Below are positions 25,910 through 28,513 of a stretch of 28,513 bases of DNA, in pieces; within the stretch, counting starts at the first letter, position 1; the number at the start of each line of letters is the position of its first letter. Source of the stretch: Candidatus Latescibacterota bacterium (GTDB lineage Bacteria; JAAXHH01; JABIQT01); NCBI GenBank assembly GCA_018667995.1, contig JABIQT010000703.1, positions 1-28,513 on the forward strand. Direction: 5' to 3'. A model generated the notes under the pieces. It saw only the letters and a list, made by a program, of their open reading frames with translations, was not told where the DNA came from and made no database searches. The translations under genes were made by a program, and so were the position numbers.

Positions 25910-26386
25910 TTAATGATGAATACGTGCGAGTCTACGATTGCGCCTTTCCTTTGCCTCGGCATACCGACGCATCTGCTCATCCGTTTCAGGTACAAGTATC
26001 GGAACCTCCTTCGGGAGCCCATCGGGACCGAGCGCAACGAACGTCAAGTAAGCGCTACTTGTATGCAGACGCTCCCCAGAAAGACTATCTTCGGAGAAGA
26101 CCTTAACGCCAATTTCCATGGAGGTAGTTCCGGCATAGTTTACCGATGCCAACAGGATGATGAATTGACCGACCTTCACAGGATGATGGAAATCCACCTC
26201 ATCAATAGAGGCAGTCACTACAGGTGACCTGCTGTGTCGCTGTGCCGCAATTGCCGCAGTTATGTCCACAAGGTGCATCACGCGTCCACCCAAGATGTTT
26301 CCGAGAGGATTGGCGTCGTTGGGCAGGACCATTTCGACACGTTCCACTGTGGAGTCATCTACAGATTTCTTACAAATGTCCGACAA
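25910..26386 (-). CDS. Hotdog-fold acyl-CoA thioesterase
   Basis: A 158-residue single-domain protein of the YciA/BACH type, which hydrolyses acyl-CoA esters. The signature is MVLPNDANPLGNILGGRVMHLVDITAAIAA (residues 19-48 in part), followed by DEVDFHHPVKVGQF and the late strand SSAYLTFVAL. The frame has no ATG before residue 19, which lies inside the first conserved strand; the only start that keeps the N-terminal strand is TTG at 26386, with a purine-rich AGGGCGG ahead of it. The chain is highly basic at its C terminus. It heads the minus-strand block running to thrC and dapF. Substrate range is unknown. Confidence 0.85.
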   Translation of the reverse strand: MSDICKKSVDDSTVERVEMVLPNDANPLGNILGGRVMHLVDITAAIAAQRHSRSPVVTASIDEVDFHHPVKVGQFIILLASVNYAGTTSMEIGVKVFSEDSLSGERLHTSSAYLTFVALGPDGLPKEVPILVPETDEQMRRYAEAKERRNRRLARIHH

Positions 26387-26485: not shown

Positions 26486-26514
26486 TTGACTACCGATACT
26501 CAGCCGTATATACT
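26486..26514 (+). promoter_or_regulatory. Near-consensus sigma-70 promoter reading into the intergenic region
   Basis: TTGACT (26486-26491) and TATACT (26509-26514), each five of six consensus bases, are separated by exactly 17 bases. Transcription would start near 26521. The next gene on this strand begins 815 bases later, so the product is either a very long leader or a separate non-coding RNA. Confidence 0.55.
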
Positions 26515-26658
26515 GTTCCCTCGCTCAACGCACATCGTGTAAATAGAGGTTTGGCGCCGGCTTCAGGTGCCTTCCAGATTATCGGGTTGCCTGATTGTTG
26601 TCAAGCAGATTCAAACAGTCTGAAGCATACCGATTTATGTACGTTAGAGTGACCAAAA

Positions 26659-26674
26659 TGTGATCCAGATCACA
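26659..26674. promoter_or_regulatory. CRP/FNR-family-type operator, consensus half-sites
   Basis: TGTGATCCAGATCACA has perfect 7-base arms and the exact TGTGA-N6-TCACA spacing of E. coli CRP sites, with flanking A residues as in that consensus. A CRP/FNR-superfamily regulator is the likely ligand. Its identity in this organism is not known. Confidence 0.6.
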
Positions 26675-26675
26675 A

Positions 26676-26700
26676 GAACACGAAATCATCTTCGGTGTTC
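26676..26700. other. Hairpin between the two CRP-type dyads
   Basis: GAACACGAA pairs with TTC-G-GTGTTC, nine pairs with one bulged G and a 6-base loop. It starts two bases after one dyad and ends two bases before the next. Confidence 0.45.
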
Positions 26701-26701
26701 C

Positions 26702-26719
26702 TGTGAAAAACATTTCACA
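26702..26719. promoter_or_regulatory. Second CRP-like inverted repeat
   Basis: TGTGAAA and TTTCACA are perfect 7-base arms around AACA, so the TGTGA/TCACA half-sites are 8 bases apart instead of 6. The centre is 44 bases from the first dyad, about four helical turns. A possible -10 (TAAAGT at 26739-26744) would put this site near -41, the class II activator position. Confidence 0.45.
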
Positions 26720-26813
26720 CTTTCGACGATGTGCCTTTTAAAGTTTGGAATTTAGATGATTGCCCCGTGGTGGCACTTGCATGAGAGATTGATCCGATAA
26801 CGAGAATTATAAA

Positions 26814-26843: not shown

Positions 26844-26940
26844 ACCTGTTCGCACCAGATTGGTTTTATGAAGGTTTTTATTGAACTAATGGCACGATGT
26901 TTGCATCATAATCTACCATTATTCAACTTCCTGCATCATC

Positions 26941-26978
26941 AGTATGACCCAATCGCATGAGTATGACCCAATCGCATG
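26941..26978. repeat. Perfect 19-base tandem duplication
   Basis: The unit AGTATGACCCAATCGCATG occurs twice without interruption. The second copy runs straight into a hairpin at 26979, and its ATGACCC is matched by an inverted GGGTCAT at 27001-27007. Confidence 0.85.
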
Positions 26979-27169: not shown

Positions 27170-27205
27170 GAAAAATACTTCACTGCCCCTGTTTCGATAG
27201 ACTGG

Positions 27206-27213
27206 AAGGAGGT
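27206..27213 (+). promoter_or_regulatory. Orphan Shine-Dalgarno sequence
   Basis: AAGGAGGT is a perfect anti-16S match, but no ATG, GTG or TTG lies at the usual 5-12 bases downstream. The next ATG (27252) is 38 bases away and opens a frame of only 17 codons. Confidence 0.4.
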
Positions 27214-27271
27214 AAAGACGACGTATTAACTGTAGTTTTGGGATATTGCCCATGAAACCATTAACTGATCA

Positions 27272-27295
27272 GTCAGCAAGTAGGGGCGAGCTGAC
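27272..27295 (+). other. Leader hairpin before the TonB-receptor gene
   Basis: GTCAGC and GCTGAC form a 6-bp stem with a 12-base loop, ending 40 bases before the start codon. It may shape the leader; evidence is only pairing. Confidence 0.3.
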
Positions 27296-27335
27296 AGCAA
27301 TTTAGAAGGGCGTCGATTAAAGAGGAGTGAAACGA

Positions 27336-28513
27336 ATGTCTAACATTTCGAGAGCTTTGGCGATTGTTTCTGCAATCGCTCTTCTGCTCTGTTTCTCCAC
27401 TTCGTCCTTTGCGCAAGGAACTGCCGGTAAAATCACCGGTCAGGTCATTGACGCAGGGTCGAAAGAGCCGTTACCGGCTGCCAGCGTCCGGATCGAAGGG
27501 ACGCCGATGGGAGCCATGGCGGACGAAACGGGAAACTATTTTATACTCAACGTACCACCAGGCGAGATTGTTCTGGTTGTAAACGTTATTGGCTACCAGC
27601 CCATACGTGTTGAGCAGGTAATCGTGAAGCAGGATTTTACGACCTACCAGAACTTCGAACTGGAATCAACAGTCCTCGAGGTAACGGAGGCGGTAACGGT
27701 CATAGCGGAACGTCCGCTGGTCGAAAAATCCCTGACTTCAAGTCGAACCATCGTGAATGCCGACGAAATCAAAGCCTTGCCAATTGTAAGCATAGCGGAA
27801 GTTGTGCTGACAACGGCTGGCAGTTTTGCCGGTAACCTCCGCGGCGGCCGCGCACAGGATCAGCAGACAACGCTGGACGGTGCGACGGTGACGAGCCAGA
27901 GGGGTAATACGGGTCAGGCCTTTACGGTCAACCCATTCATGATTCAGGAACTCGAAGTTAAGACGGGTACCTTTAATGCTGAATACACCAATGCGTTGTC
28001 TGGTCTGACCTCGGTTGTGACCAAGGACGGTGGCCCAAGCTTCACTGGAAACCTTGAATTCCGGACACTCGGACAAAAAGGTCTCAACTGGGCAAAGCCA
28101 CCGAATCTGGACTTGGTAGACAAACTGCGCACGGGTGAGTCCAATGCCAGTGATCTTCGCAATCTGATTAATACCGCGCTGACACTTACGGACGCATTCA
28201 ACAACGATCCTGCCCGTATTGATGACGGTCTCCATCTCAAGAACCCATTCAGCAATGGTGGTTTGGATACGAGTTCCTCGGATCCGCTGAACTGGACCGC
28301 GAGATACAGCCGGGACAACTACTACTGGGATTACGATCGCATCATCCCGGAAGCCGAAGCTCCTGGTTTTTCGTATTTGTCTCAGGGACTGCCGCTCGCC
28401 CAGGCACAGAGCCAGGGCGTCGACAGGTCATTCCATCCTGACAAATACAATGAATTCGCACGCAACAATCGCACAGAGAAACGTCCTACCCAGATTGATT
28501 GGGGTATGGGTGG
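27336..28513 (+). CDS. TonB-dependent receptor with carboxypeptidase-regulatory-like domain, 3'-truncated by window edge
   Basis: The first 392 residues of an outer-membrane receptor for energised uptake of large or scarce nutrients. A signal peptide spans about 1-27 (ALAIVSAIALLLCF then SSFAQ). Residues 32-112 are a carboxypeptidase-D regulatory-like domain (KITGQVIDAGSKEPLPAASV to ETGNYFILNVPPGE). The plug follows at about 128-232 with QQTTLDGATV and ELEVKTGTFNAEYTNALSG, and the barrel begins after it. This layout is typical of FCB-group bacteria. The start is set by AGGAG at 27323-27327, eight bases before the ATG. No SusD-like partner can be seen because the window ends. The substrate is unknown. 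The long upstream region suggests conditional expression. Confidence 0.9.
   Translation, partial: MSNISRALAIVSAIALLLCFSTSSFAQGTAGKITGQVIDAGSKEPLPAASVRIEGTPMGAMADETGNYFILNVPPGEIVLVVNVIGYQPIRVEQVIVKQDFTTYQNFELESTVLEVTEAVTVIAERPLVEKSLTSSRTIVNADEIKALPIVSIAEVVLTTAGSFAGNLRGGRAQDQQTTLDGATVTSQRGNTGQAFTVNPFMIQELEVKTGTFNAEYTNALSGLTSVVTKDGGPSFTGNLEFRTLGQKGLNWAKPPNLDLVDKLRTGESNASDLRNLINTALTLTDAFNNDPARIDDGLHLKNPFSNGGLDTSSSDPLNWTARYSRDNYYWDYDRIIPEAEAPGFSYLSQGLPLAQAQSQGVDRSFHPDKYNEFARNNRTEKRPTQIDWGMG

Follow-up and report, generated by a model that had tools for sequence, protein, structure and literature searches.

A predicted composite array of CRP-type and EBP-type sites upstream of a sigma-54 promoter for a TonB-dependent receptor gene in Candidatus Latescibacterota

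Introduction

Between a pair of minus-strand genes and a gene for a TonB-dependent receptor, a contig from a Candidatus Latescibacterota bacterium carries three adjoining dyads within 61 bp (26659-26719). Which regulators these dyads would serve, and at which promoter, is the question addressed here. An earlier note on this DNA had read the outer two as sites for one CRP/FNR-family regulator, and comparison with the same region in relatives leads to a different assignment for part of the array.

Results

The locus and the sequences compared

The stretch analysed (the window, 28,513 nucleotides) is one contig of a 6.06 Mb assembly that is 85% complete and consists of 1165 contigs. The relatives are mostly metagenome genomes assigned to Candidatus Latescibacterota, although two of the close records carry the labels Gemmatimonadetes and Zixiibacteriota. 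Orthologues of the receptor (TonB1), 65-71% identical to it, were found in 14 relatives (G002-G015), and their comparison identifies the ATG at 27336 as the conserved start. The minus strand to the left of the array carries genes for a thioesterase and for threonine synthase (thrC). In the relatives that were read, thrC adjoins the receptor upstream region directly, without the thioesterase gene; it is divergent in this genome, G002, G011 and G013b. The features of the region are listed in Table 1.

Sixteen TonB1 upstream sequences were compared, namely that of the window, one from G011, two from G013 (G013a and G013b) and 12 from a single genus, g3. The G013 copies are near-identical and are counted as about one independent case. 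They are located on contigs C68 and C84, which suggests either a strain mixture or a recent duplication (contamination in this genome is 6%).

Table 1. Predicted and annotated features around the dyad array (window coordinates; EBP, enhancer-binding protein).
Feature	Position	Strand	Description
4HBT-type thioesterase, divergent	25910..26386	-	Pfam PF03061
Sigma-70 promoter, thioesterase and threonine synthase	26576..26604	-	TTGACA-17-TAATCT; probable; conserved in type
CRP site TGTGATCCAGATCACA	26659..26674		perfect TGTGA-N6-TCACA; kept in CRP-bearing relatives; predicted from sequence
EBP-type dyad 1 (core GAAATCATCTTC, 26682-26693)	26680..26695		GMAA-N4-YTTC in 16/16; inside hairpin 26676-26700; predicted
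EBP-type dyad 2 (core GAAAAACATTTC, 26705-26716)	26703..26718		third dyad, 26702-26719; GAAA-N4-TTTC in 16/16; predicted
Sigma-54 (-24/-12) promoter TGGCACGATGTTTGC	26890..26904	+	TGGCACGNNGTTTGC kept upstream of every orthologue
TonB-dependent receptor (TonB1)	27336..28511	+	Pfam PF13715 (CarboxypepD_reg-like) and PF07715 (Plug); runs beyond window end

Composition of the array

The array reads TGTGATC-CA-GATCACA, A, GAACACGAA-atcatc-TTCGGTGTTC, C, TGTGAAA-AACA-TTTCACA, in agreement with the three adjoining dyads of the earlier note. Both outer dyads are perfect and, as the note also had it, are centred 44 bp apart (26666.5 and 26710.5), and the middle element pairs over 9 base pairs with one bulged base. 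As DNA the segment folds at -14.2 kcal/mol (z = -4.5), a value equalled in 0 of 200 shuffles. When the intergenic region is dinucleotide-shuffled, 6.4% of the shuffles contain two perfect dyads with 7-bp arms no more than 50 bp apart and 0.23% contain a perfect TGTGA-N6-TCACA, which also turns up in 2% of shuffles of the whole window. The geometry is thus only moderately unusual by chance and constitutes modest evidence; the verdict on the array rests on the comparison with relatives, and it is conservation that carries conviction. A DNA search of the relatives with the dyad region itself returned chance-level matches only (best E 0.06 outside this genome), and conservation was therefore traced through the receptor orthologues.

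The first dyad tracks a CRP-type regulator

The first dyad is retained at the orthologous position upstream of the receptor in G011 and in both G013 copies, which represent two other Latescibacterota genera with an encoded CRP. The counterparts are TGTGATGGAGATCACA in G011, and TGTGATGCAAATCACA and TGTGATGCAGATCACA in the first and second G013 copies. None of the 12 g3 receptor upstream regions contains the site. Genome-wide, TGTGATNNNNATCACA occurs 7 times each in G011 and G013, 3 times in the genome of the window, once in G001 and not at all in any g3 genome searched, the reversed motif giving 2 matches in the window's own genome and 0 in either G011 or G013. Among the genomes searched, the motif is restricted to those with a CRP-type regulator. 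Strong CRP orthologues are encoded by G011 and G013, and a distant one (31%) by G001; in the g3 genomes searched there was no CRP orthologue, and a single weak cyclic-nucleotide match in G003.

In the genome of the window, CRP is represented by a fragment on contig C574, which is 55-56% identical to the G011 protein and stops at the contig edge, short of the DNA-binding domain (HTH). This truncation explains why a search of that genome with Pfam HTH_Crp_2 recovered no CRP. The complete proteins of G011 and G013 carry RETVSR in the recognition helix, and the CRP proteins match the structures of M. tuberculosis and E. coli CRP by sequence. Residues R-S-A and T-N are also present, which from known CRPs we take to form the cAMP pocket. 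The regulator is therefore CRP-like and most likely cAMP-dependent, and the first dyad is, by its sequence, a predicted CRP-type site that goes with the TonB receptor gene. That dyad had been proposed as a consensus CRP-type site that could act on the receptor or the divergent thioesterase, to be checked against a homologue in the genome and conservation in relatives. For the receptor the proposal holds on each count, since a CRP orthologue is present and the dyad, which keeps its position before the orthologues, is absent only where CRP is. The family named in the note can be narrowed to its CRP branch; the redox branch, FNR, drops out. An FNR site (TTGAT-N4-ATCAA, bound by redox-type Fnr) was considered and rejected, as the half-site here is TGTGA and the regulators carry the CRP-type RETVSR. 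A NifA-type reading, TGT-N10-ACA, fits the sequence but was also dropped, because presence of the dyad follows CRP whereas sigma-54 EBPs occur in all the genomes.

A further conserved CRP locus was seen between genes for a hypothetical protein and a zinc-ribbon protein, at C1039:5172-5213 in the window's own genome (two sites 26 bp apart) and at C59:16702 in G011, with matching neighbours. It has no sigma-54 promoter in either genome, so CRP is not specific to sigma-54 logic. Among the CRP loci examined, the receptor locus alone clearly pairs a CRP site with a sigma-54 promoter.

The middle and third dyads form a tandem of EBP-type sites

The third dyad had been described as another CRP-type site, but it is TGTGA-N8-TCACA where the spacing of a CRP site is N6. 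Its core is kept in relatives with and without CRP and its outer TGT..ACA is not, and a second CRP site was accordingly rejected here. What all 16 TonB1 upstream sequences share, CRP or not, is a tandem GMAA-N4-YTTC (TGMAA-N4-TTTC type) that takes in the middle and third dyads. The spacing within the tandem is 23, 24 or 29 bp, g3 having 29 bp as against 21-24 bp elsewhere. The pairing of the middle dyad was correctly described in the earlier note; a structural role is not borne out, as an EBP-type site lies there whether or not CRP is present.

The tandem pattern matches about once per genome, at the receptor, with 0 matches for the reversed control. Two additional matches fall upstream of a second receptor (TonB2, 35-39% identical). 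In the relatives that were read, TonB2 adjoins or lies close to the genes of a solute-binding protein, a dCache histidine kinase and an NtrC-type response regulator. This regulator (the EBP) has REC, sigma-54 AAA+ and Fis-type HTH domains and is 66-68% identical across G001-G014. The TonB2 promoters carry the tandem with 21-24 bp between dyads, 100-145 bp upstream of a -24/-12 element, and this arrangement next to the EBP gene was found in nearly all genomes examined, G013 having a variant. A matrix trained solely on TonB2 promoters scores the pair 26680/26703 highest among 313,203 placements in the window, and so predicts the array coordinates independently. It gives 8.6 bits for the first EBP-type dyad and 15.9 bits for the second, which is the best single site of the whole window. 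The best reading of the middle and third dyads is thus a predicted tandem of EBP-type sites, the EBP being linked to them by motif and gene neighbourhood. The window's own assembly yielded no EBP orthologue (best match 40%) and no close counterpart of the second receptor, both possibly missing through its incompleteness.

The genes for the solute-binding protein, dCache kinase, EBP and TonB receptor occur as a cassette in G001 (C140), G005 (C6), G011 (C190) and G009 (C23), and this may be a sensor-controlled uptake system.

Promoters on either side of the array

Downstream of the array, the defining bases of a canonical TGGCACG-N4-TTGC type sigma-54 element are invariant in every orthologue. 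An RpoN gene was found in each of the seven genomes tested, in that of the window as a fragment. With 80-200 bp taken as the range for a tandem upstream of such a promoter, the second EBP-type dyad lies 106-180 bp from it across the sequences and about 180 bp in the window. Promoters of this class require an EBP. A scan for forward sigma-70 promoters between the dyads and the receptor gene returned no supported candidate. The weak -10 at 26739, which would have made the third dyad a class II site, is accordingly unsupported; the segment containing it is not conserved, and the conserved promoter is of the sigma-54 type.

On the minus strand, TTGACA/T-N17-TAA(T/G)xT is the best match at a comparable position in the two G013 copies and in 10 of the 12 g3 sequences, and the G011 counterpart is TTGACA-16-GATATT. 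A sigma-70-like TTGACT-17-TATACT also lies upstream of the dyads at 26486-26514 (+), though matches of this kind are no more numerous than expected by chance.

A fixed spacing between the CRP site and the tandem

In all four sequences that carry the CRP site, which come from two families, precisely 21 bp separate its centre from that of the first EBP-type dyad. The other distances vary, with 106-180 bp from dyad to sigma-54 element and 71-82 bp from the first EBP-type dyad to the divergent promoter. CRP and its site are found in two families, f1 and f3 (genera g4 and g5), and are absent from genus g3 of f3. The simplest reading of this distribution is that the composite would be ancestral and that its CRP half would have been lost together with CRP in g3.

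Discussion

The arrangement is best explained, with a probability that we put at roughly three in four, if 26659-26719 serves the sigma-54 promoter at 26890-26904 as a composite enhancer, or upstream activating sequence, in which CRP would dock at the EBP tandem. An NtrC-type EBP would bind at 26680-26718, on the two tandem palindromes, and through a DNA loop would drive open complex formation by sigma-54 RNA polymerase and hence transcription of the TonB receptor gene. The CRP-family regulator would occupy 26659-26674, two turns from the first EBP-type dyad and on the same helical face, so that carbon status could gate the EBP through CRP. The comparison itself establishes the sites with their conservation and constant spacing, the sigma-54 promoter, and the joint occurrence of the CRP motif and CRP; in this scheme we infer that these proteins bind, which EBP is involved, that cAMP is the ligand and in which direction CRP acts. 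Abutting sites two helical turns apart suggest either direct contact or mutual exclusion, and we lean slightly towards cooperative help to EBP binding. Several observations weigh against the scheme. Where CRP is known to act at sigma-54 promoters, it often inhibits (PMC3900584). The window's own assembly has no recognised EBP orthologue and only a CRP fragment that ends ahead of the HTH, the tandem is more widely spaced in g3, and CRP also has a conserved locus with no sigma-54 promoter.

Rival readings differ chiefly in the promoter or protein that they assign to the array. The CRP site might mainly serve the divergent thrC/thioesterase promoter as a far class I site, its closeness to the EBP sites being crowding. 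The conserved position of the minus-strand sigma-70 promoter and the repeated divergence of thrC agree with this. The divergent -35 is nevertheless at varying distances from the first EBP-type dyad, and hence from the CRP site (71, 77 and 81-82 bp), while the CRP site and that dyad keep their 21 bp, and a class I activator at about -92 to -103 would be working at the outer limit of known distances. We consider this unlikely as the main function, although a role at the divergent promoter is compatible with one in the enhancer. The original proposal, that CRP occupies the two outer dyads cooperatively and activates as a class II factor from a sigma-70 -10 near 26739, retains the CRP assignment of the first dyad and can point to a TTCACA-17-TTTAAA in the window. 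It is very improbable given the N8 spacing of the third dyad, the TGAAA-N4-TTTC found there in relatives that include those without CRP, and a conserved sigma-54 promoter where the forward sigma-70 scan was empty.

That the tandem binds some unrelated repressor or activator instead of a sigma-54 EBP would be in keeping with its recognition as a sequence motif and with the lack of a cognate EBP in the window's own assembly. The same tandem recurs 100-145 bp before a second sigma-54 promoter, beside an EBP gene and in nearly all genomes, and promoters of this class need such a protein; a regulator of another type is quite improbable. The strong fold could also be taken to mean that the three hairpins function as DNA or RNA structure, for example as an attenuator or a cruciform. 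The array is, however, upstream of the sigma-54 promoter and so would lie outside that transcript, the extended pairing GAACAC..GTGTTC is not retained in relatives, where the core palindromes only are kept, and there is no Rfam match. We regard a structural function as scarcely credible.

CRP at sigma-54 promoters is already known, and it is the fixed-phase arrangement in an uncultured phylum that is new. The composite enhancer proposed here resembles the prpBCDE system (PrpR) of E. coli and Salmonella in having a sigma-54 promoter with an EBP, a requirement for CRP (at the prpB promoter) and a catabolic gene tied to carbon status (PMC5566544). That system has a ligand-sensing EBP and enzyme genes, whereas here the EBP family is of the two-component type, the gene is that of a TonB receptor, and the CRP site keeps a constant 21 bp to the EBP tandem. 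CRP also acts on sigma-54 transcription at dctA, glnAp2 and Pu in E. coli, where it inhibits, mainly via polymerase contact, and Pu is without a predicted CRP site (PMC3900584); here a perfect, conserved predicted site abuts the enhancer. In Dickeya, CRP binds the NtrC-family regulator VfmH, a physical contact of the kind envisaged here, but VfmH has an altered sigma-54-contact motif, and the accessible part of that report describes no fixed-phase composite site (PMC10714721). Tandem upstream sites of the NtrC/XylR type have a similar layout, with a pair of palindromes separated by two to three turns and placed 100-200 bp before a -24/-12 promoter, and differ in sequence from the TGMAA-N4-TTTC found here with its added CRP site.

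A tentative extension, to which we give somewhat less than even odds, is that CRP and the two-component EBP would form one fixed-phase complex acting as a two-input AND gate for carbon status and the kinase signal. One genus would then have dropped CRP and its sites and kept the EBP half, leaving a one-input gate. The joint absence of CRP and sites from that genus, with the sigma-54 enhancer intact, provides a natural experiment on the loss of an input. For an uncultured phylum the locus offers testable regulatory wiring, comprising a promoter, its sigma factor, the activator family and a co-regulator of nutrient uptake. Because inhibition is a frequent outcome elsewhere, a conserved CRP site in phase with an EBP enhancer makes cooperative CRP-EBP action a testable question.

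Further features between the sigma-54 promoter and the receptor gene

Two 19-bp direct repeats (CATSAGTATGACCCAATCG) at 26937-26974 lie directly 3' of the sigma-54 promoter and are followed by hairpins; they are not evident in the aligned relatives. Nearer the gene, a receptor leader (27272-27295, within about 27200-27340) is conserved in 15 orthologues. It consists of a AAGGAGGTGAG-like block, a GTCAGC..GCTGAC stem-loop and AGAAGGGC, in that order, followed by the ribosome-binding site. An Rfam search of the receptor leaders gave no match, and the conserved leader is possibly an unnamed leader RNA element.
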